A stretch of 64,000 nt of DNA from Dysidea avara (taxonomy: Eukaryota; Porifera; Demospongiae; Dictyoceratida; Dysideidae), in the NCBI RefSeq assembly GCF_963678975.1, contig NC_089281.1, positions 4,489,277-4,553,276 of the forward strand. The letters are read 5' to 3'. Below are positions 6,236 through 64,000 of the stretch, one piece after another. Numbering within the stretch: position 1 is the stretch's first letter; each line of letters opens with the position of its first letter. The notes under the pieces were generated by a model. That model was not told the origin of the DNA. It made no database searches and saw only the letters and a program-made list of their open reading frames with translations. The translations under genes and the position numbers were made by a program.

Positions 6236-6486
6236 TTATGAGTCTTACTATTTTACATAGGGTCATGATCAATTGATCACGCATTTTGTGGTCTAGCAAA
6301 CCTTTTATGAATACTAGAGCTAAAGTCACTGTGACCACTAACACCATGCAGTTAGTACTGTAGCTGTACTTTAAGATGATAGTGGTGACTTAAACCCAAG
6401 TATTCATAAAGGTTTACTATGCATACCAGACAGCCAACTGCATGATCAATCAATCATGACCCTATAAAATAGTAGGACTCATGATA
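6236..6486. mobile_element. Foldback MITE
   Basis: The arms begin ATGAGTCTTACTATTTTACA on the left and the complementary TGACCCTATAAAATAGTAGG on the right. They continue through TGATCAATTGATCA and the tail CCTTTTATGAATACT. It is ~250 bp and non-coding. Confidence 0.65.
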
Positions 6487-8822: not shown

Positions 8823-15499
<6,677 letters not shown>

Positions 15500-17183: not shown

Positions 17184-30035
<12,852 letters not shown>

Positions 30036-30132
30036 TTCTAAATATTGAGGAGGCGAATTTGGACCCCCGAGTTAAGCGCCTGTGAGCCTGTTGGCAAATA
30101 ATATATAATTATAGGCGCTTCATACAAACGAA
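30036..30132. promoter_or_regulatory. Divergent (bidirectional) promoter between the AOX/XDH and TMEM87-like genes
   Basis: Only 97 bp separate the two start codons, so both 5' UTRs and core promoters must lie here unless 5' UTRs overlap. A TATA-like AATAATATATAATTATAG lies at about 30097-30114. AAGCGCC and GGCGCTT occur as an inverted pair on either side of it. Transcription starts are unknown. Confidence 0.6.
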
Positions 30133-36946: not shown

Positions 36947-39900
36947 TGTGTAATACAGTGTACTGTATGGTCAACTGTGTGAAGCTGTTTATTTTTCTGT
37001 ACATTTTGTGTGACAGTGGGTGTACATACTGTATATGGTTCTTACCATTCCACAGTGTACAAAGCCATTCTGCAGAATTCCTACCAGAGGATCATACGTT
37101 GTGATCATATCACTTTCTACTACTGCTAAGAATTTCTCTTTATCATGTGAGCTTGTGTGTTACAATGGCTTGTTTGTTTACTAGATGTTATTGCTATATC
37201 ACTTTCCTCTCCATTTTGTGTCAACTTTTGGTTGATTGATTTGACAAAACACTGCAAAACTTTACCTGAAATTAAGTCCGAAGCCACTCGATTATATCTT
37301 GAGTAAACAGTATAACTAGTCCTATTACTCCTCTGACTCACCTTATTAGTTTACAATACATGCAGTTAGTTTGAGTATAGCACTATATACTGTATGTGCT
37401 TGCTTAATACAGTGGAACTTCAGGTAATATCTTAACACCAATTCTTCAAGGTTTCTGAAAACCAATTGCTAGAATGTTCTGTTAGAGTGACAGTCCACTC
37501 CTGTACATAAATGTTTAACATAGTCTTTTTCTCTATGGATTTGTGGTCTTATGAACAACTTCAGCACTTTTAGCTATCTAAAGTTGGATGGTACTATCCA
37601 GGGCCCAGGGGTTTGAGTAACTGAGGTCCCACTGTACATAAGCGATACTGTTATACTGTATATGCTCATAGATACACTTGAGATGAAGAACTGGTTTGGA
37701 TATCTCAGCCTTGTAGATTATCCTTCATTGATTGTGAGTTGTCATCAACTGAATATCTAAATGATATTTTAAACCAAGTGCACAGCCACAGGCCGGTTGT
37801 GAGCATGCACTTGGTTTCCTAAAATAAAGTGTGGTATGTGTGTATGCGTGCGTGTGTGTGCATGTTGTGTGTGTGAGTGATACTACACACACCTTTACTC
37901 ATCAGTTGTCCCCAAGGTTTGGGTACTATTGTTAAGGGGTTGAAATCCTTTGCCCTTTTAAGCTACAGTACTGGTTTCCTGAAATTAGCTTGGAAACAAT
38001 GTGTCCACACGGCAACCAAGATTCAAGCTACAAAAAAATATGCCTTTATTTTATGTATGAATGAATACAAGACTATTTATGGACTATTAAAGGTAGCATC
38101 CTTATAAACCACAGGGTCCTCTTTACTTGAAGAGGGTGTGGCCCAGCCAAACAGTAACTAAAACACTTCATAACTACTGAACGACTGAAGCTACCGTACA
38201 TATGTACTCAATACCTGAAACCTATCTGCTGTGTGGCTGTTTTAGACCAAAATCACTGCCTCAAATGGTACCAAGAAAAAAGAAATGATTTGATTTGCAT
38301 GGTGGGCATGATCCTGTTTAGTTGTGGAACACTTTGCACAGACGAATGCCAGCTAAAGAACTGAGAAACTTAAACATGCAACAGACAATTATATTCATAT
38401 TTGTAATTATTGTTTATTGTGAACTTCATAGTAACTGATTCAAACATGTTTATAATAGGTTTCCAGTCTATAATCACATTATATTATCTGTCCTGTGCAG
38501 TTCTATGGAGTGATTACTGCAGTGTATATCAGCTATGCTATAATATGGGTGACTCTAATGGCTGTCTCTTATACAGATGTGATTCAGTTACAGGTAAATA
38601 TGTGCATTCTGCATATTGCATGTGTGCATATCCACAATAACTTGTACATACACACTTTGTGTGCACGTATGTATGTATGTATGTATGTATGTGCATATGT
38701 TTGTAGGTGTATCTGTACTGCTTAACATTTCAGGTCCTCTTCCATTTATTTAAGAGAGTGTCTTTAGTTAACAAGTATAAGTTTCATTACTGTAAATTAC
38801 TCTAGTTTCCTTTTCACCTAATAATTATTGTTTCTATACGGTCATTGCATCCTAGCACATATTTCATTACAGTACGCACATACATAGTAAATAGGCAATA
38901 TATCTATTATGTGTGTAATTTCAACTTTTATCTCATTGTAGTGGTGGATTATGGCAGTAATAGTGTTTGCTGTTCTGGAAAACTTATTGTTCTTCACTGA
39001 GTATAAGATAGTGAATTCAACAGGGACTCATGGTAATTGAGCTATATTTGTATTACTGTATTTGATGGCATTTCCATAGCAAATTTCTGCATTTGAAATT
39101 ATCATACAGTACGATAGTACAGTATAGTAGGGACCACAAAGGAGTAGGCATGGCCCACAAAATAATACCACCCAAAAACCAGCCTCAATTTTCCCTGACG
39201 ACGATGAGGCAGTGTTGGTTAGGTAAAACTAAGCCTTAGTAACAAGCTTTCAGATCGACCTGAAACACTTTCAACAAGTTGCTACAGATTTTGTTTTAAA
39301 CTTAATTTAACGGAATTTTCTAGTGACTGACTGACTGACTAACTGACTGACTGACTAATGCCTTCAGACAAGCATAACTCGATAACGGCTAAGGCTATAG
39401 GCTTGATTTTTTTACTGTTCGACGTTGCTTCAGCCTGAGAGGTGCCTTTTGGCATACCGCAATACATACAATACATGTACATTCTTCATGGAATTACCAG
39501 TGTCCTCCTTTGTGTCTCATTCATCTTTGCTGACAGCGAAAAGTGTCGATTTGGTGGTAGTACATGATGACTTCCTTCGTAACAGAAATTGTCTGTATTT
39601 TTCATAATGGCTACTTTGATTGCAGAGGTGCTTTTCGAATACCTGTAGTTCTTGATTCGTACTGCTGTGTAACGGGTTAAACATAGTCAACAACGAAGCG
39701 TAATGGATACTTCACTTTTTAGACGATAATTGATATAACTGGGACGCGTGGCACCATTTCTTTCTTTTTTCGGTATGCGTGGATTGCAGAGGTACTTTTC
39801 AAACAGTTCTTGGTTCAAAATGCTGTGTAACGGGTTGAACATAGCTGACAATGAAGCGTAATGGATACTTCACTTTTCAGACGATAATTGATATAGCTGG

Positions 39901-42900
39901 GGTACGCGGTGCCATTTTAGATGCGGTATGCATGGGTTCACTAGTCATGGTAATTTACAAAAAAGTTAGCAAACAAGTACACACAAAAAAATTGGAATTT
40001 TCAACTAGAGTAGGGACCAAAGCAAATCGATAAAAAGTACTGAAACAAGTTGGAGTAGTCTATGATATTAAATCACAGTAAAACAATAGGAAGTGTTATA
40101 TCCCTACTGTGCTCAACGGAAATGCACAGTGAGGATATAACACTCCTTATTGGTTTACTGTTATTTAATATCATGGACTACTCCAACTTGTTTCAGTACT
40201 TTTTATCGATGTGCTATGGTCCCTACTCTGAGTACTTGTGAATACTAAATACCACATAACGATCTTTGATATCGTACAGTTAAATTAAACAGCGTTTATG
40301 CAATCCAAGAATAACTACTATGTAATAAATGTGGGCTAGCATTCTTCGAGTACTAATTCATCTAAGACCAAAGAGGAATACACTGAAATTAAGTGGAGCT
40401 AATAAATGTGTGATAAAGAAAATGCCATTTAAAAGTACATACATGCATACCAAACTTAAAATTTTCAGCATGTAAATCTGGACCTGTACATTGCATCCAG
40501 CAAGAACCTCTACCATGCACCTAGAGCCAATAACTTTTCATGAGGTATTATCATTGCAAGTTCTTTGTACCATAGCAACCAAAATAGAAGTGACGTATTT
40601 GGTGATCAGTGCTCAATTTATGTTTATAATTGTACAGTTGAGACACGTCTGGTGTACATCCTTGCTGGGTTGATATCTGCGGTAGCAAAGTCACTGGTTA
40701 GAGTATTGCTGGTCTTCATCAGTCTGGGATATGGAGTTGTATTGTAAGTTGGTATTCAGTAGAAGCAACATCAATGTGTAACTAATGTTTGTATACATAC
40801 AAGTATGTATGTCAAGTATGTATGTGTATTGGAAGAAAGAAAGCATGTACCACTTTACACCTAAGTCAGACAATACCATGCATGAAAGTATAGTTATATC
40901 AAAACCCCTGGGGCACCAAAAAAGTCCTCTGAAACAGTGCATGAACTCACAAGAACATGTATAATTACCATTTAGTGTATTTAGCACTTTTTTCCAAATA
41001 AGGAAGAAGTTTATGTACATGTATTTAACTACTCTGCAAATACTGTATGTACTTATTTATCTTTGTGTTTATTGTTATTAGCCTCATTGCTAAATCTCAA
41101 AAAATCAAGTTGCTGGTTATAGGGCTGTTGTTTGGAGTGTTTACCTTTCTTGATGGCATCACTCGATCATATTCTGTAAGTGTATAAAGTGTTTAATAGG
41201 GCCACATAAACTTAATTACTAGTTTCTCATCCTCCTGCATTCAAAATAGCTGTGCAGGAGGGCAGATTTTTAACTAGCTAGATAGCTGAATTAGCTAGTT
41301 AAAATGACTCAGAATGCATTCTTCTTAGACTGCTCTAGCAAGGTACCAACTTTTAAAATGTGCTGGATGGCTGCACTAAGCCACCAGTGGCACAAAAAAT
41401 CCTTGATGAGGTAAGAAAAATGGTGATGCGGGTGGGGATGAGAAACTAATAATTAAATTTATGCGGCCTAACCTGCTACTTTGCGAGGAAAGAGTTAATT
41501 AAGGATTAACTGTCCACTAGTATATCTTCAATTGTTTCACTACTTTTTTCTATGATCCTCAATTGAACTTAAAATTCCTTGCACTTTTTTGTTTCCTTTT
41601 TTGTAACATTATGACTGGGTAAACATCGGATCAAAAATGCCAGACTTATTGTTTTTGTCTGCATGACCTTGTGCCCCAACAATCAATTACTGAAAAGTGC
41701 CAAGTGGTCATTATGCTTTGTTTTCAGCTATGTTCAGCCTGCCCATTACACTGTGTTATAAATGAAGAACTATATGAGAAGTTCCTCTGCAATCAATCCA
41801 GTCACTACGGAAAAGACAGATGATTCCCATTACTAACGTAGGGAAGCCATCATGTGCTACCACGAATTGACACCTGAGCTGTCAGCAAAGAGAAATGGGA
41901 TACAAAGGGGAATCCATTGTATGTGCATTGTATGTACTGCGGTATTCCAAAAAGCACCTGTCAGGCTGAATAACAGACTCCAAAAGTGGCTTCAGTACAA
42001 CCCAAAATGCTTCCAATAGGTTGCTATGAAATTTAACTACTGCCTAATGATTGACTGACTGACTTACTTACTTACTAATGCCTCCAGACAAGCGTAACAC
42101 AATAATGGCTGGGGCTACAGGCTCATTGTTCAACGTAACCAATACTGCCAAGGCACCATGAAGGTATTGTGAGGCTGCCAGTATTTTTTTGTGAGAAAGT
42201 ACAAACCTCCATGATCCCTAATATACAGTCACTACCATACTGTATGATGTAGCTGCAAATATGTCATTAGTATCATGTTGTAGCAACCTCATGTCATCTT
42301 AATCGTATGTATAAATTGTTGTTCTCTTTGTTCCTACAGGTAACTGGTGGCAATACAGTATATTTCACTGTAATTCCAATAATTATTATTGATCTCACAG
42401 TTCTCTACTGGATATCCTTATACTAGCTACTTACCTACGTATGCATATATGTATGTTAGGGCCGTGTGATAATGAAAAAAAAACTATATCTCAATAAGTT
42501 TCAATAACAAAAACCATTTTATCATGATAAATGATATTATCTCAGTGATGAAATGTTGTCATTGAGTACTTATACACGTACAGCTTTGCGTAATAATATG
42601 TAATTGTTTAAGGCTAGTATCTCCTGCTCTTTTCAGCATTAACACAGCTGATTGTGACCTTACTCATAAGAATACCAAGTGCCTGCTTTTAATATACAAT
42701 TGTTGACGGAGATTTACAGTACTATTATCTTGATATATTGATAATAGAAAATTCATTATCTTTATCACGATAATGACATAGGTATCATGATAATAACGTT
42801 ATCGATATTATCACACAGCTGTAATGTACGAGTATTACACTTTCCAACATGCCATTACAACTTGCGTGTTAGACTTCAACACATTTGATACGAAAATTGA

Positions 42901-45888
42901 AAACATAGTTGTACAGGTAAGTCCCATAAGAACCATGTGTAGCTACCTCTATAAGGACCACTCTCTAAGGATATGCAAAAGCACAACATTTATGTGCTTG
43001 TAACACTGGCAGCACATGGGCATTTAAATGGATAGTAACAGCCATACTAAAATTAGAAGGAGGTGTTCAAGGTACAGCAATGAACCCTGTGTTTTGAAAA
43101 TCTATCTATTACATATATATATGGCTGTACCATATACATATTTATTGTTTAAAATACTGCCAATTGTATGTACATTTAAACAACAACTTTGTGTTTCCTT
43201 GACTTCACTTATCCACGTGTTTGTGGCTGCAAGAAAGACCAGTGCTGTTGTAGCACAACGACATGACATGAGCAAGATGAGGTTATATAAACATTTTAAA
43301 TTTACCATCATCTTTGCTGTCATTGGTAAATACACACATAATACACATGTATGCAGTGTGACATATGTATTTAGGTATCTATAATGTATTATACCAAGAC
43401 TAAATTAACACATATGTTTCTACTAGCTGTTTCATTCATATTGTTATTTCACAGTTGGTATTATCTATGTGACATGGAGAACTGCGTTTGCAATTGCTTC
43501 TATAGACTGTATCAAAGTAAGCACATGTAGTGTGTTATAATGTGGTGTATACAAAATTTAAATCTGAGTGATTAGGAATACAATGTGCATAGTATAGATC
43601 ACAGCACTGAAACAAAGCTGTATTTGAAGTTATCCGTATTTTCAATTTCAGCAAAATCCTTTTAGTAAAATTTTGTATCTTCCATTGGGATCACACTGTA
43701 ATGTAGCTCAGAAGATGCCACTGTCAAAGCTAATCAAAGTATTTGCTATAGAAAATGATTGCCTGCAGGTTTAGAATATTTTGAAATTCCAGTTTTATTA
43801 GTTGCCCAATGATATTTTTCTGTACCTGAGTGATCATTTTAGTATTGTTGAAATAAGTTTTGCTAGAAAAACTTTTAACAAGAATTTTGTATATCAAACA
43901 GATAAAAATTGACATTTTGTACCTTAACAAGTAGTACTGTTGGTCCCATGTCTGGTTACAACATACTTAAACACAGCAATTACAAATAAGCAATCCGTAT
44001 CCACTATCTTCTAAATACACGTGTATGGACAATTTGGATTCAGTTTATTGTGATGAAATAATGATGAAGCTGTTGATATCTTATCTGCAAATCAACACCT
44101 TTACAGAAGACTAGAGGAAAAAGAAAGAGGGAAGATAAGTCCATATTGAGTGCGCTGTATGTCCCGCAGTATACATAGAGCACATTTTGGGCCCAAATAA
44201 TATTTAACTGTCAAAGGCAATTAGTCCATCAGGCAGTAAGTCATCAATCAATAGAAAATTGATTTACGTAGAAACTTCTACTTTCAGATAATTAGGCACG
44301 TTTGGGTTTGATTTTTGCTGCACTTAACCAATACTCAAAATTGTCATGGTGAATATTTCGTGCTGTTGATAGTTCCGATGGGAATGCATATACCTTTCCA
44401 GTCCCTATTGTTAAATGCTACCATACTTCATTCAAACTACTCTCTCATTTGTGGCATCTCTTATCCTGTTTAGAAGTGTCGTGTATGTAGTCTGATGGAA
44501 ATTAAACATTTATTCTTTAAAAACAAAATTACATATACAAGTGTGGAATGCCTACATATACAGACAGTACTGCCCAAGCGCAACGTCGCACTCGCTCGCA
44601 CATGCAACTTTGCTCGGGATTTTAAAAATCGCTAATTAAGGGGCGTGGCAACTGTTTTGCTCGTGAATGAAACAGCTGCCACGTTGTCTCACGAGCGAAG
44701 CAGTTGCCACGCATCTCAATTAGCAATTTTTTTAATCTCGAGCGAAGTTGTGTGTGCGAGTGAGTGCGATGTTACGCTTGGGCGGTACCGTATCATACAC
44801 ACATGTATATATGTACTATTCCATTTGTGTCAATTATTTATTAACAGGATCCTGAGGTGTTATGGCTGGGTGATGTGTGGAGGGAGATACTGTTCTCAGT
44901 AGTGTTAGCAATCTTAATGATACTGTGTCGACCTAAAGATGAACATGGAGGGTATGTACCTCTATGTTGTATTTCTACTATGTACTATTTTTATAGCAAA
45001 CAGCTTGTATGTACTAAAAGATGCTAACAATAATACTTTGTAGTTCCAGTTTCCTTTTGTGCTTATGCAGATTCAACGAAATAGTTTATCATTATGAAGA
45101 TGAACCAGAACAAGGAGCAAATAAAAATTTTGGTAAGCAATTTATACCGTCTACACAGTAGTTAGTAAGTGAATTGTCATTTTTGACCTAAAGCCAATAG
45201 TGACTGAAATATACGTGATTTTCATGACGTCATGTCATACCCCGTGATGTACCCCTTAGAGACATACACAGGTGAATTTTGGTAGGCAGTAGACCATAGC
45301 TTAAGCCTCCAGTATTGTCAGATAGTATTGTGAGAATTGATCATGGTCAATTTATCCTTCTCACAAAATTATAAACTACAATACTTAAGGATGTTCACAT
45401 CTTGTGTTTCATGCATGTGTCATGTGCAGTTGTATGCACATATTTTATAAGCATTTTGTATTCCCTCTCAGATACCATTGTAATGCGCCAACTTCCAAAA
45501 GAAACTGCCGATACTGAGAAATTCAAAGAAGTAAAAATTATGTCGCATGTTTGTAGTATATGTGTTTCATTATTTGCTCTTCTTTACCACATTTTCTGTT
45601 CTACACAATTTTTGCTTGCCAGATGACTCCAATTTTTTTAACGTTTCAGAATTATGTACTGCAAAATTGATATTTATGTGATTTATTTGTATATGTATGA
45701 ATGTGTATGTACATCCTGGGGGTACATATATGCAGTTACATCATTAGGCATACAACCTAACAAGTTATCACATACCCCTGCTAAAGTATATACATTAATA
45801 GATAGTTTGCGTATATGTATGCATGACCCATGTACTATAATATTGTTATTTTCATTTGTTATAGACCCCTGAAGAGAACATTTGTTGA
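30133..45888 (+). CDS. TMEM87: TMEM87-like Golgi seven-transmembrane (GOST family) protein, about 21 exons
   Basis: Exons: 30133-30285, 30346-30400, 30589-30689 (or 30697), 32753-32820, 33036-33097, 33519-33608, 36295-36360, 36687-36786, 37017-37100, 37672-37733, 38501-38593, 38942-39032, 40638-40743, 41082-41175, 42340-42411, 43217-43325, 43455-43516, 44848-44951, 45071-45132, 45472-45530 and 45865-45888. Together they give ~574 codons, near vertebrate TMEM87A/B. Residues 1-26 form a signal peptide. The lumenal part follows, with glycosylation sites (NIT, NCS, NLT). Then come LSLVDYPSLIFYGVITAVYI (first helix), LENLLFFTEY, ISAVAKSLVRVLLVFISLGY, TFLDGITR, KMRLYKHF and ILFSVVLAILMILCRP, in the family's order, then an acidic cytoplasmic tail. 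TMEM87 proteins reside in Golgi/endosomal membranes and are linked to retrograde transport; that is family knowledge. Phases agree except between the third and fourth exons: the third must use a downstream donor (gtatag, 30698) or a small exon is missed. The intron at 42412-43216 looks U12-type. Confidence 0.87.
31060..32140. mobile_element. Composite dispersed repeat in a TMEM87 intron
   Basis: It starts with a foldback (CTACACCAGCAAATATACTA ... CTAGTATATCTGCAGGTGTA), followed by AAATTCCTAATTTTTCC. A middle part shares AGCTATGTTCAGCCTG with 41730. The right part runs CATAGCCTTAGCCGTTATCG to CTACCATACTGTATGATG. A second full-length copy is at 41480-42250; reverse-orientation copies are listed separately. 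Open frames inside (31405-31936) are not recognisable. Confidence 0.6.
33813..34866. mobile_element. Palindrome-rich element in a TMEM87 intron
   Basis: 33813-33935 is a hairpin: TTATACAACGGGCACGAGTG with CACGAGTGTACGTTGTATAA, nested GCTCTGCCTG/CAGGCAGAGC, and a GGGCCGTTAGGCCC core. TATGTACCACTC at 33934 and GAGTGGTACATA at 34859 form a pair of inverted ends. Near the right end, 34680-34830 holds several GCATTATAACTTATAATGC palindromes in tandem. The right end resembles that of 14000-14582. Confidence 0.55.
36859..36948. repeat. (TGCG)n microsatellite
   Basis: About 22 GTGC units in a TMEM87 intron; a repeating Cys-Val-Arg-Ala frame through it is an artefact. Confidence 0.95.
37410..37634. 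mobile_element. pogo/Tigger-like MITE
   Basis: Ends CAGTGGAACTTCAGGTAAT and GAGTAACTGAGGTCCCACTG, flanked by TA on both sides, ~225 bp. It lies in the intron just upstream of the exon at 37672. Another partial copy starts at about 35457 (CAGTGGAACCTCTCTTATAC). Confidence 0.8.
39100..39990. mobile_element. Dispersed repeat copy (ATCATACAGTACGATAGTAC end)
   Basis: It starts with the conserved end, then GTAGGGACCACAAAGGAGTA, CATGGCCCACAAAATAATAC and GACTGACTGACTAACTGACT. Then come ACAAGCATAACTCGATAACG and an internal duplication: two ~130-bp units around AATGGATACTTCACTTTT at 39690-39790 and 39840-39930. It is in a TMEM87 intron. Confidence 0.6.
40010..40226. mobile_element. Long foldback MITE
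   Basis: Two ~95-bp arms are nearly perfectly complementary. The left begins GTAGGGACCAAAGCAAATCG and the right ends CGATGTGCTATGGTCCCTAC; both contain AAAAAGTACTGAAACAAGTT. A short loop separates GTTATATCC and GGATATAAC. Confidence 0.8.
41480..42260. mobile_element. Second copy of the composite dispersed repeat
   Basis: Matches 31150-32140 in the same order (GGATTAACTGTCCACTAGTA, AGCTATGTTCAGCCTG, CCAATACTGCCAAGGCACCA, CTACCATACTGTATGATG) with substantial divergence. It lies in the intron before the exon at 42340. Confidence 0.6.
42412..43216 (+). other. Candidate U12-type AT-AC intron of the TMEM87-like gene
   Basis: No usable GT donor follows ...DLTVLYW before an in-frame TAG. The sequence there is TGG|ATATCCTTATAC, an exact U12 5' splice site (ATATCCTT). 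At the other end TTCCTTGAC matches the U12 branch site, and 13-14 nt later CTTATCCAC|GTGTTT ends in AC. Splicing these (phase 0) gives YWVFVAARKTSAVVAQRHDM followed by SKMRLYKHF, which aligns without gaps to the corresponding stretch of vertebrate TMEM87 as I recall it. A hAT-like MITE (42457-42823) sits 45 nt inside the intron. Confidence 0.8.
42457..42823. mobile_element. hAT-like MITE (TAGGGC(C/T)GTG family), copy 1
   Basis: Left end TAGGGCCGTGTGATAATG, right end ATTATCACACAGCTGTA. Interior motifs ATCATGATAA/TTATCACGATAA recur on both arms. The flanks (ATGTATGT/ATGTACGA) are a decayed candidate 8-bp duplication. Same family as 53495-53746 and 61998-62249. Confidence 0.75.
44570..44785. mobile_element. 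Full-length foldback MITE with TA target site (mariner-like)
   Basis: The ends CTGCCCAAGCGCAACGTCGC and GCGATGTTACGCTTGGGCGG are inverted repeats flanked by TA. The arms run nearly the whole 216 bp, through GCTCGCACATGCAACTT, GCTAATTAAGGGGCGTGGCA and the core TGTCTCACGAGCG. The open frame at 44645 is internal to it. The duplicated copy at about 59404-59588 lacks the left arm's end. Confidence 0.8.
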
Positions 45889-53494: not shown

Positions 53495-53746
53495 TAGGGC
53501 TGTGTGACAATGAGAAAACCTAAATCTTGATAAGTTCTGATAACCAAAAAACCATTATTTTTATCACGATAAACAATATTCTCACAAGAGTACCCATCTG
53601 CCTACTTTTAATATACAATAATCTATGGATATAATTTTACTATTTGATAATAGAGAAACCATTATCATAATTAGCTTTATCATGATAATGACATAGGTAT
53701 CACGATAATAGATAATATTGCATTATTGGTATATCGCACAGCCGTA
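53495..53746. mobile_element. hAT-like MITE with 8-bp TSD, copy 2
   Basis: TAGGGCTGTGTGACAATG ... CGCACAGCCGTA is flanked by a perfect 8-bp duplication ATATGTTT (53487-53494 and 53747-53754). 252 bp, non-coding. Confidence 0.88.
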
Positions 53747-56171: not shown

Positions 56172-56612
56172 TCACTCAGCAAGGTTGAACTTGACTGCAA
56201 GGTACTTCAGAACAGCTGGTGTACCATGGCCAGAACCCATGGACCAATCAAACTTGGCTGTTGTGATGTTGGAAATACGTAGCCCAGACTTATAATCATG
56301 AAACTGTTTACCATCAAGTAAAATTTGAATGTAATCATCTTTAGCAATGAATGTAACAGTGACATCTTCCCTTCCTTTAAAATCATATCCATCAACTCTT
56401 TGTGGTTTCTCCCCTCGTTGATATGGCCATTTTCCATCTATTTGTGATGAAATTACCACTTCTCTTTCATCAAAGCGAGGATTGAAGTGAAGAATGATAT
56501 CTCCCTTATCATTGTACAAGTCTATTTTCACCCTTCCTTCCTTGGGGTTGGTGTAGGCTGCCTCTATACCTCTGCCAGTTTGGAAGTTGGTAAAGCTAAT
56601 ACTGTTTTCCAT
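56172..56612 (-). CDS. Galectin-like lectin, single carbohydrate-recognition domain
   Basis: An intronless frame of 146 residues with ATG at 56612. It is the size of one galectin CRD (~135 residues), and the whole protein is that domain. The core galectin signature is visible: ILHFNPRFDEREVVISS (residues ~40-56) with the sugar-contacting H-N-R, and GKWPYQRGEK (~61-70) carrying the conserved Trp. Then come VTVTFIAKDDYIQILLDGKQ with the usual F and DG turn, and a closing LKYLAVKFNLAE strand. Two ligand positions differ: V-x-N is V-x-S and the E of W-x-x-E-x-R is replaced (W-PYQ-R), so beta-galactoside binding may be altered. There is no signal peptide, as expected for galectins, which leave cells by a non-classical route. 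Single-exon form could mean a retrocopy. It lies in unique sequence between duplicated blocks. Confidence 0.85.
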   Translation of the reverse strand: MENSISFTNFQTGRGIEAAYTNPKEGRVKIDLYNDKGDIILHFNPRFDEREVVISSQIDGKWPYQRGEKPQRVDGYDFKGREDVTVTFIAKDDYIQILLDGKQFHDYKSGLRISNITTAKFDWSMGSGHGTPAVLKYLAVKFNLAE

Positions 56613-57480
56613 TTGTAACTCGTATATCTGTCAGTAGTGATGCTATCCACAGAGTAGTTCATATACTCTATATAAAAACAGTCTCCTTTTATACACAACA
56701 AACTGTGTAGAGAGTTTCATGAGGTGACTGATTCTTGGGAGTGTGTATTTTTTGCAGCAGCTGTCAGATGAGATTTCCATTGCATAGTATTGAGACTATT
56801 CAAGTGTATCAAATTTCCTAGAAAATGTACATGTAGTACATAACAAATAATGGAATCCAGCTTGAACTTGGGATACCACATCAAAAGAAAGAATGTCATT
56901 ATATCTATGTGTGTGCTTCATCAACTACTGAAAAGAGAAGTCACCATTACACTGTTCAACCTGCCACACACCATTACAAATGAAGAACAGTACAAGAAGC
57001 ACCTTCGTCTTTTGGGCTTAATTAATACTGCCAAGGTGCTGTGAAGATATTGCGAGGCCAGTTTCTGGTCAATGTATTTTGTGAGAAAGTGCAACTCCCC
57101 CTGATCCTTATAATATGCAGCTGTATGACAATACTTCAACTACAACATAACTACTACAACACGATAAACACTTAAGAACATATAAAGGTGTAGGCATATT
57201 GAAATCTATGCAGCTGGGGTAGTGATTTTTGTGTTAGAGATGTTTTATTATATAATAAATATATATATGATACTTCTTTGGGTGATGTTGGACTCGCCAA
57301 ATTTGATTGGCAAGTGATAGCTAAGGCTCCTCCACCATGATTGGATGCGACTTAGTTCTTATACAATGGAGACACATTGACAAATTTTTGTTTATCTGCT
57401 ATTATACGCTACATGTGTGTTGCTAAATATTCTGGAATTTTGTATAAATGCAACAATGCAGTCATAAACTATAGTCCAGA

Positions 57481-61430: not shown

Positions 61431-64000
61431 GGGGCAGTGTTATCATATGGGCAGTAGGGATCATGAAGGTTTGTACTTTCCTGCTATGAAATGTCAATCA
61501 ACAACTAGCATCACCTTTCCTTCACGACAATTTGACAGTATTGGTTAGGTGTTGTAAGCAAGCCTGAAATGAAGTTTCTATGGAATTTTAAACATTATTT
61601 TCCTTTTAGCTGAATTGACTAATTGTAACTCACTGTTACCTCTGGCCAAGCATAACTTGACTATAATGCTACCGGCTTGGTTTCTTCTTGTGCTGTTTGA
61701 CATTGCTTAGGCTCAAAATGTGCCTTTTCATTTATGTCTGTGCAGCTACAATGAACTTACTGTGTTCCATTTCTTTCTCCATGCACTACCATGTAGGTGT
61801 TGTTATAGGTAGCATGTCAGTTTTCTTGTGGTGGTTATCACAATTAAATAAATATTGTGGATTGATTGCAGAGGTACTTTCTTGTACTGTTTTGCACTGT
61901 GTGTCAAGCAGAACGTAGCTGAAGAAACAAGCCACTCAGTAAGTGACAGTTAAGTTGGAGTGCATGCTCTTTCAGATACACAATTTATGATATGTTGTAG
62001 GGCTGTGTGACAATGAGAAAACCTAAATCTTGATAAGTTCTGATACCAAAAAAACCATTATTTTTATCACGATAAACAATATTCTCACAAGAGTACCCAT
62101 CTGCCTACTTTTAATATGCAATAGTCTATGGATATTTACTATTATTTTATAATAGAGAATCCATTATCATAATTAGCTTTATCATGATAATGACATAGGT
62201 ATCACGATAATAGATAATATTGCATTATTGGTATTATTGCACAGCCCTAATATATATCTTTTGATGCGATAGAACATCAGTGCAGAAGAATACAGTAAAA
62301 CTATCAATAGCCCTATGTTAGTTGACCTACCTGACATGACCACCACATCACAAAGTGATCTCACTAAAGAGGTATCCACTAAGTGAGGTTTAGTGTATGA
62401 AAATTACATAGCTTTATTATGATGAATATAAACCATTCATACACAGCTGTACTAAATCTATTGTGTTCACAGATAGTTAAAAGTCAATTGATCATCTAAA
62501 CCTAACAACAGTCATTCTGCTGGTTTGATCTGTTTTGAGTCGCACAGACTGATTATTTTTAATGTGATTATATACTTGCTGCATCAAACTTGATTGCAAG
62601 TTGCTGCAGTTAAGATGGTACTCCAGTCCCATCAACCCAACTTTCTGAAGTGAATTAATCAGCAGCTCGTATTTGAAATCACTGATCAACAATCAAAATG
62701 TGAACACTTTCTTCAGTAGCAAACAAATCAATAGTGACTTTCTATTGTGGTGCAAAGTTGTAGGTATACTAGTATGTGTAAATATTTAGTTAAGCCTTTA
62801 GTACAGTCAGCAACAAAGTTAAAAATATGATTATATAGTTATCATCTTTGTCTAGTATGGTATTGTCCTAACCTACAGTCCATCATTGGGAGCCTAGCCA
62901 ACTTGGTGACCAAACACTCACAATGAACTTATTGACTACTAATGCAGTATACAGTCAGACCAACCATTTTTTGATCTGAATTCAATTCTAATTAAATCTT
63001 GCACTTAATCTCAGTTATCTGGAAATGTACTTTAGTTATACCCAGAAACACACATATGTAGACCACACCGACCACATCAGTGTAAATGACGTTGAATTCA
63101 TGTTACTAATTGACACCAGAGCTTTTAGATATACTTGTAAGCTGCAGGCTGAACATCACTGTTGTAAAATAATTATAAGTAGGGTGAACTAATGAGTAGC
63201 TAAGATTGCATGCCAATATAATTGCCCGATTTCTTTTGCAAGTAATACGTATGTGATAAGAAGACCGAGAAGAGAATATTTTCTAACATTTAGTAGAAAT
63301 CAGTAAAAATTTACAAACACACACTAAGTAATGATTATTATGATGTAAATAAACCAGCATGCATCCAGGTAATAAGGTATATATTAACTAAAAACTTAAA
63401 CGTTCATCATAATTAATTTTATACTTATGGTAAAGAAATGAAATTATATATGATGAAAATGAAAACAAAATTGTGGCTGCTTGACTGTCACTCATCATAC
63501 AGTATGATAGTACTGTATAGTAGGGACCACAAAGGTTTGGGCATGGCCCATGAAAAAACATCACCCAAAAACCAGCCTCACTTTTCTCTGAAAACGATGA
63601 CTTACCAGTGTCCTCCTTTGTGTCTCATTCATCTTTGCTTACAGAGAAAGGTGCCAATTTGGTGGGAGTGTGTAATGGCTTTCCTTCATAATGGAAATCA
63701 TCCAGAGTGGCTACTTTGATTGCAGCGGTGCTTTTCAAACAGTTCTTGATTCGTAATACTGTGTAACGGGTTGAACATAGCCAACAACAAAGACTTCACT
63801 TTTCAGATGATAATTGATAGCTGGGGCATTTGTTTCTTTTGATGCAGTATGCGTGGATTCACCAGTCATAATAATTTTATTTTACAAAAAAGGTAACAGA
63901 CAAGTACGCAAAAATTGGAATTTTCAATGGTCCCTACTCAAGTTGAAAAGTCCAATTTTTTGTGTACTTGTTTGTTCTACAGCACAGGAAGTAGTCAAAA
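61431..64000. repeat. Segmental duplication block B'
   Basis: Continuous copy of 52931-55700 running to the window edge, with the shared hAT-like MITE (61998-62249) and dispersed repeat (63497-64000). No exon was recognised. Confidence 0.9.
61998..62249. mobile_element. hAT-like MITE, copy 3 (duplicated with block B')
   Basis: TAGGGCTGTGTGACAATG ... TTGCACAGCCCTA at the same relative place as 53495-53746. It was therefore copied by the segmental duplication and was not inserted independently. Confidence 0.85.

Follow-up and report, generated by a model that had tools for sequence, protein, structure and literature searches.

The closest described systems are the mammalian TMEM87 genes. In the passages of PMC6717393 that concern mouse Tmem87b, exons 11 and 12 are separated by a minor intron that contains exon 11a; exons 11 and 11a are both 72 bp long and are mutually exclusive. 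Similarly, the excerpted text of PMC8329584 describes TMEM87a and b with the same exon and minor-intron arrangement. A second point of reference is human SMYD2, which the excerpted listing in PMC7367187 gives as a U12-type intron (ATATCCTTTA, CTTTCCTTGACT, AGCAC). Among minor introns, those with AT-AC termini account for ~22% in human and 24% in mouse in the figures quoted from PMC6717393, and for ~26% in human in those quoted from PMC10639083. AT-AC introns of the U2 type also exist, and in sodium-channel genes their +5 position is always G, according to the section of PMC2831892 that deals with them.

Here, we describe a well-supported member of the U12 class in the sponge Dysidea avara. The window, that is, the whole stretch of DNA that was analysed, is 64,000 nucleotides long; coordinates refer to it unless stated otherwise, and the gene, its intron, and the features within that intron are on the plus strand. 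By homology, the window gene is a TMEM87 (GOST) gene. Its model, built from the spliced frame, includes exons at 40638..40743 (ETRLVYILAGLISAVAKSL...) and 41082..41175 (...LIAKSQKIKLLVIGLLFGVFTFLDGITRSYS), each followed by a GT-AG intron. Next comes the 72-bp exon at 42340..42411 (VTGGNTVYFTVIPIIIIDLTVLYW), which is in phase 0 at both ends, follows the acceptor CTACAG, ends in ...DLTVLYW, and closes in TGG. Beyond the AT-AC intron, the 109-bp exon at 43217..43325 opens with GTGTTTGTG and its reading starts VFVAARKTS; two further exons are placed at 43455..43516 (GIIYVTWRTAFAIASIDCIK) and 44848..44952 (DPEVLWLGDVWREILFSVVLAILMILCRPKDEHGG, 3' end approximate). The model as given leaves out two earlier exons, at 38482 and 38943, whose boundaries are approximate.

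The intron itself occupies 42412..43216 (805 bp, phase 0), with ATATCCTTAT as its first letters and TTATCCAC, closing in CAC, as its last. Its 5' splice site ATATCCTT (42412..42419, +5 = C) is exact against the U12 consensus in the quoted portion of PMC2831892, and it is the sole exact RTATCCTT between 41178 and 43216. Near the 3' end, the branch-site pattern TTCCTTRAC is matched by TTCCTTGAC at 43195..43203, with a putative branch A at 43202; the motif ends 13 nt, and the A lies 14 nt, before the final base of the intron, whose terminal AC is at 43215..43216. For U12 branch sites, the optimal distance is given as 11-13 nt in the excerpted text of PMC6717393. Should the intron be retained, translation would reach an in-frame TAG at 42424..42426 (ORF 42271-42426).

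Removal of the intron restores the reading frame, which is then open through six exons, from 40638 to 44952, with the AT-AC join in place and GT-AG neighbours. The spliced protein matches human TMEM87A (sequence taken from the PDB set) with a phmmer E value of 1.7e-25; the alignment has no gap across the exon junction, the nearest being 18 residues upstream, and the junction falls after human W377 (W377|I in the numbering of the 8hsi chain). The GOST_TM domain is present as well (PF06814, E 1.3e-23, 84.3 bits vs. a cut-off of 25.2), the query having been the spliced protein with one extra residue at one exon joint. Much of this had been anticipated: the original prediction, made from the letters alone, had named an exact U12 5' site, a branch-site match, a terminal AC ~13 nt past it, and a frame restored with a gapless match to the family, and all four are borne out at the positions given above.

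It is important to remember that ATATCCTT alone is common. It is found at 22,397 places in the genome (11,204 and 11,193 on the two strands of 550.8 Mb, or ~2.0e-5 per position), and its reversed control pattern at 20,992. TTCCTTRAC has a single occurrence in the window, both strands counted, and RTATCCTT followed by TTCCTTRAC within 5 kb is found there only once on the two strands combined, the one case being the intron at 42412. At fixed boundaries, base frequencies give a probability of ~7.5e-9 that the 5' site is accompanied by TTCCTTRAC at one of 21 allowed places.

To compare joins, all GT-AG, GC-AG, AT-AC, AT-AG, and GT-AC pairs with donors in 42340-42599 and acceptors in 42480-43299 were listed, and the 162 that are open and in-frame were scored by local BLOSUM62 alignment to a stretch of human TMEM87A. 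The 42411/43217 AT-AC join ranks first with a score of 104; the second and third (90 and 88) are also AT-AC, without a U12 5' site in register. The first alternative to be weighed is an ordinary GT-AG join, which would either skip part of the conserved segment or use an upstream extension of the next exon. The original prediction had held that no GT-AG pair could join here. Taken literally this was slightly too strong, as the ranges tried contain nine GT-AG joins that are open and in-frame; a canonical CAG|GTAAGT is also present at 42917 inside the intron, and no stop interrupts the next exon's frame upstream as far as 43028. The best of the nine nevertheless scores 61 vs. 104, and all of them use acceptors at 43237, 43253, or 43276, inside the next exon, thereby losing at least VLYW and VFVAARK, so that none keeps the conserved segment. 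Nor was any open in-phase GT-AG join found into the 43028-43216 extension within those ranges. For skipping of the 72-bp exon, the range tried holds no open in-phase AG upstream of 43217; the two that are open and in phase, 43237 and 43276, are both within the next exon. We thus consider a GT-AG join of either kind very unlikely.

Two observations on the same stretch can be noted in their own right. The donor at 42917 is a perfect major-class site inside a minor intron, ~90 nt past the transposon described below, and it could define a cryptic exon. Separately, the downstream exon can be read in frame for a further 63 codons upstream into the intron (43028-43216), with a partly hydrophobic reading.

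The AT-AC intron has a counterpart elsewhere in the same genome. A GOST_TM family search returned a single match, on contig C2, and this is a second, diverged TMEM87 gene; the window gene, taken exon by exon, was below threshold in that search. The protein of this paralogue is 47% identical to that of the window gene by the aligner's count, the figure for human being 34%. Its 81-bp exon at L014:5880-5960 (locus L014 being the extracted stretch of C2) closes in TGG and is followed by a 452-bp intron, again phase 0 and AT-AC and at the identical codon boundary. The intron starts ATATCCTTTTGAG, giving the 5' site ATATCCTTTT; it carries the branch site ATCCTTAAC at 6389-6397 and closes GGTCAC at 6412, likewise with a CAC end, and the next exon opens GTCTTCACT. 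The paralogue junction 5960/6413 of L014 corresponds to C2:45048959/45049412. The branch A is 16 nt from the intron end (14 in the window intron). Scored in the same way, the paralogue's AT-AC join is the best of 73 open joins at 121, ahead of the next at 107 and of the best of five GT-AG joins at 74.

The two genes have downstream exons of equal length (109 bp), with 61/109 bases identical; upstream of the intron, the 72-bp exon of the window gene corresponds to one of 81 bp in the paralogue, with 38/60 identical over the last 60 bases. The intron interiors are unalignable, blastn returning just two words of 10-11 nt. Since the exons align and the intron interiors do not, the splice signals have been kept for longer than the sequence between them. 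This retention beyond the divergence of the intron is the strongest evidence for their function, and it offers a clean case in which the splice signals of a minor intron are kept, while the remainder has diverged past alignment and has taken in a transposon.

The paralogue also bears on a second alternative, namely that the window gene is a decaying copy with no working intron, in which retention would stop translation at the TAG at 42424..42426. The paralogue's exon pair aligns better to human TMEM87A (121 vs. 104), so the window copy could be the less constrained of the two, and its intron does carry a transposon. Against this, six exons share an uninterrupted frame and have splice sites at their joints, the profile score of 84.3 bits is well above the cut-off of 25.2, and neither the 8-nt 5' site nor the branch site is damaged. 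Decay therefore seems to us highly improbable.

The AT-AC introns of some sodium-channel genes are removed by the major (U2) spliceosome, and this route has the slightest chance of all for the TMEM87 intron. Termini alone do leave the pathway undecided, as the excerpted discussion in PMC2831892 points out, but the sodium-channel kind described there has G at +5. Both TMEM87 paralogues have C at +5 with the full ATATCCTT signal, which speaks against the U2 type, and in each the branch site is of the U12 type, its A 14-16 nt from the intron end.

A genome search for the U11, U12, U4atac, and U6atac RNAs had been proposed alongside the original prediction as a check, and all four were found above the Rfam gathering score, U4atac narrowly. 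U6atac was matched over its full length with 108.5 bits, U12 with 107.7, U11 with 83.0, and U4atac with 57.6 bits against a gathering threshold of 53, a margin of 4.6 bits. Judging from the alignments, UCCUU at the 5' site can pair with AAAGGAGAGA (AAGGA) of the U6atac match, and UUCCUU at the branch site with GAGUAAGGAA (GUAAGGAA) of the U12 match. A second, shorter U6atac-like match (58.1 bits; L011 1501-1599, i.e., C5:36200715-36200813) has an intact 5' half and a degraded 3' half and is probably a pseudogene or a variant. Within the window, an Rfam scan at gathering thresholds gave no matches, and a tRNA scan gave none.

We consider it very probable that, as a whole, the locus holds a U12-dependent AT-AC intron of the TMEM87 transcript, that this intron is old, and that a miniature inverted-repeat transposable element (MITE) was inserted later. 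The U12-dependent reading of the original prediction gains support from the paralogue intron, the four snRNA matches, and the minor intron of mouse Tmem87a/b. In such a scheme, UAUCCUU at the 5' site would be paired first with U11 and later with U6atac, and UUCCUUGAC with U12; A42412 would be attacked by the branch A at 43202, and the exons would be joined at W|V within the seven-helix domain. The intron would have been in place before the two TMEM87 paralogues of this genome diverged. The hAT-like MITE would have arrived afterward, 45 nt inside the 5' end, and decayed like its sisters, leaving the recognition elements untouched. Please note that the actual splicing, the branch nucleotide, and the orthology with the mammalian intron are all points that we infer from sequence.

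The MITE itself is 367 bp long (TAGGGCCGTGTGATAA...TTATCACACAGCTGTA) and occupies 42457..42823, flanked by target-site duplications: ATGTATGT on the left (42449..42456) and ATGTACGA on the right (42824..42831), identical at 6/8 bases. It lies 45 nt from the 5' site on one side and 371 nt before the branch site on the other, distances that leave both recognition elements free. An insertion of 367 bp, hAT-like and 45 nt from the 5' end, was part of the original prediction; these figures proved exact, and the ends and 8-bp duplications of sister copies agree with it. Our literature search found nothing joining U12-type introns, transposable element insertion, and the minor spliceosome.

Of 183 first-look candidates in the genome, 40 were scored as matches, the window copy included, so that the family numbers at least 40; ends and duplications were examined in 20 of the 40 scored copies (L017-L036). 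In sister copies, the inverted ends are of the TAGGGCTGTG type and the target duplications measure 8 bp, and intact elements (L020, L024, L026, and L033) carry the 16-bp inverted TAGGGCTGTGCGATAA on both sides; in the window copy, one end departs from the other at 3/16 bases. Among the 20 copies, the duplications agree at 8/8 positions in nine, at 7/8 in three, and at 6/8 in two, the window copy among them; in the other six they agree at 5/8 or fewer, two of these having a truncated left end. With a mean identity of 85.1% to the other 17 alignable copies (18 in total), compared with a median of 85.8% among those others, the window MITE is, by its divergence, an ordinary old copy.

Members of the hAT-type MITEs have TAGGG/CAGGG ends. 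The window family resembles them in its short length, multicopy nature, 16-bp inverted ends TAGGGCTGTGCGATAA, and 8-bp duplications, and we take the TAGGG ends and 8-bp duplications to fit hAT elements. From the ends and the duplication length, it is reasonable to call the superfamily hAT-like. Compared with their own shuffles, the insert (z -4.5) and the intron 42412-43216 as a whole (z -4.2) both fold better; no function is drawn from either value.

Shorter relatives are located elsewhere in the window, at 53495-53746 and 61998-62249. One of them has the perfect duplication ATATGTTT and the other has ATATGTTG/ATATATAT; by eye they share their flanks, so they are probably part of a local duplication. 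In addition, an inverted repeat, long and imperfect (GCCCAAGCG...CGCTTGGGC), was noticed by eye in a later intron of the window TMEM87 gene, at 44570-44790; it resembles another MITE.

How does this intron relate to that of mammals? The window intron is real and conserved, and it lies in a gene family already known, from mouse, to have a minor intron. Mouse Tmem87a/Tmem87b and the window gene belong to the same family, and in the excerpted descriptions, as here, the minor intron follows a 72-bp exon. The comparison with mouse was made by exon number and by the 72-bp exon length alone, as these are given in the quoted passages, and the upstream exon of the paralogue is 81 bp, so that the 72-bp match could be a coincidence. 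With this in mind, the window intron is probably the same as the minor intron of mammalian TMEM87A/B. The support for conservation beyond the D. avara genome comes from the mouse papers; a search for relatives with one of our alignments (A2) in the genome and viral contig collections gave 27 and 43 pattern matches, of which none was confirmed.

One difference stands out. In the excerpted mouse description, exon 11a has its own U12 5' site, whereas the window gene and its paralogue each have a single exon at this place. When the exon peptides were slid over the introns between the neighbouring exons, no second, 11a-like copy was found in either gene: the next best ungapped score was 11 vs. 126 for the window exon (24 residues) and 21 vs. 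104 for the paralogue (last 20 residues). If the window intron is indeed the mammalian one, then the paired exons seen in mammals came later. We lean slightly toward the wider proposal that an AT-AC U12 intron at W|V/I is ancient in animals, with its class, subtype, and place kept both here and in the line to mammals, that the mammalian exon pair arose when the exon was later copied into this intron, and that the two one-exon genes here preserve the ancestral arrangement. Two one-exon versions of TMEM87, set against a mammalian exon switch regulated by the minor spliceosome, make the order in which this switch evolved testable.

The SMYD2 intron, as it is listed in the excerpt of PMC7367187, shares with the window intron the ATATCCTT 5' site, the TTTCCTTGAC branch site, and the AC end; it belongs to another gene and is in phase 1 rather than phase 0. 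The original prediction had emphasised that AT-AC introns are rare in any animal genome. Its U12 AT-AC reading holds, but the surprise was overrated, as AT-AC termini account for ~22-26% of human minor introns in the figures excerpted above and as TMEM87 is already described in the quoted mouse work as carrying a minor intron. In practical terms, gene finders limited to GT-AG will break the TMEM87 gene model.

Three other features of the window are worth recording. At 10897-15499, macro and WWE domains accompany a split PARP catalytic domain, the second PARP piece falling below the Pfam cut-off; presumably this gene is PARP14-like. On the minus strand, 29664-30071 is an exon with a 2Fe-2S (Fer2) domain, which by its look we take to belong to a xanthine dehydrogenase-like gene. 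Also on the minus strand, a galectin-like open frame is present at 56175-56630 (PF00337, E 1.2e-16).
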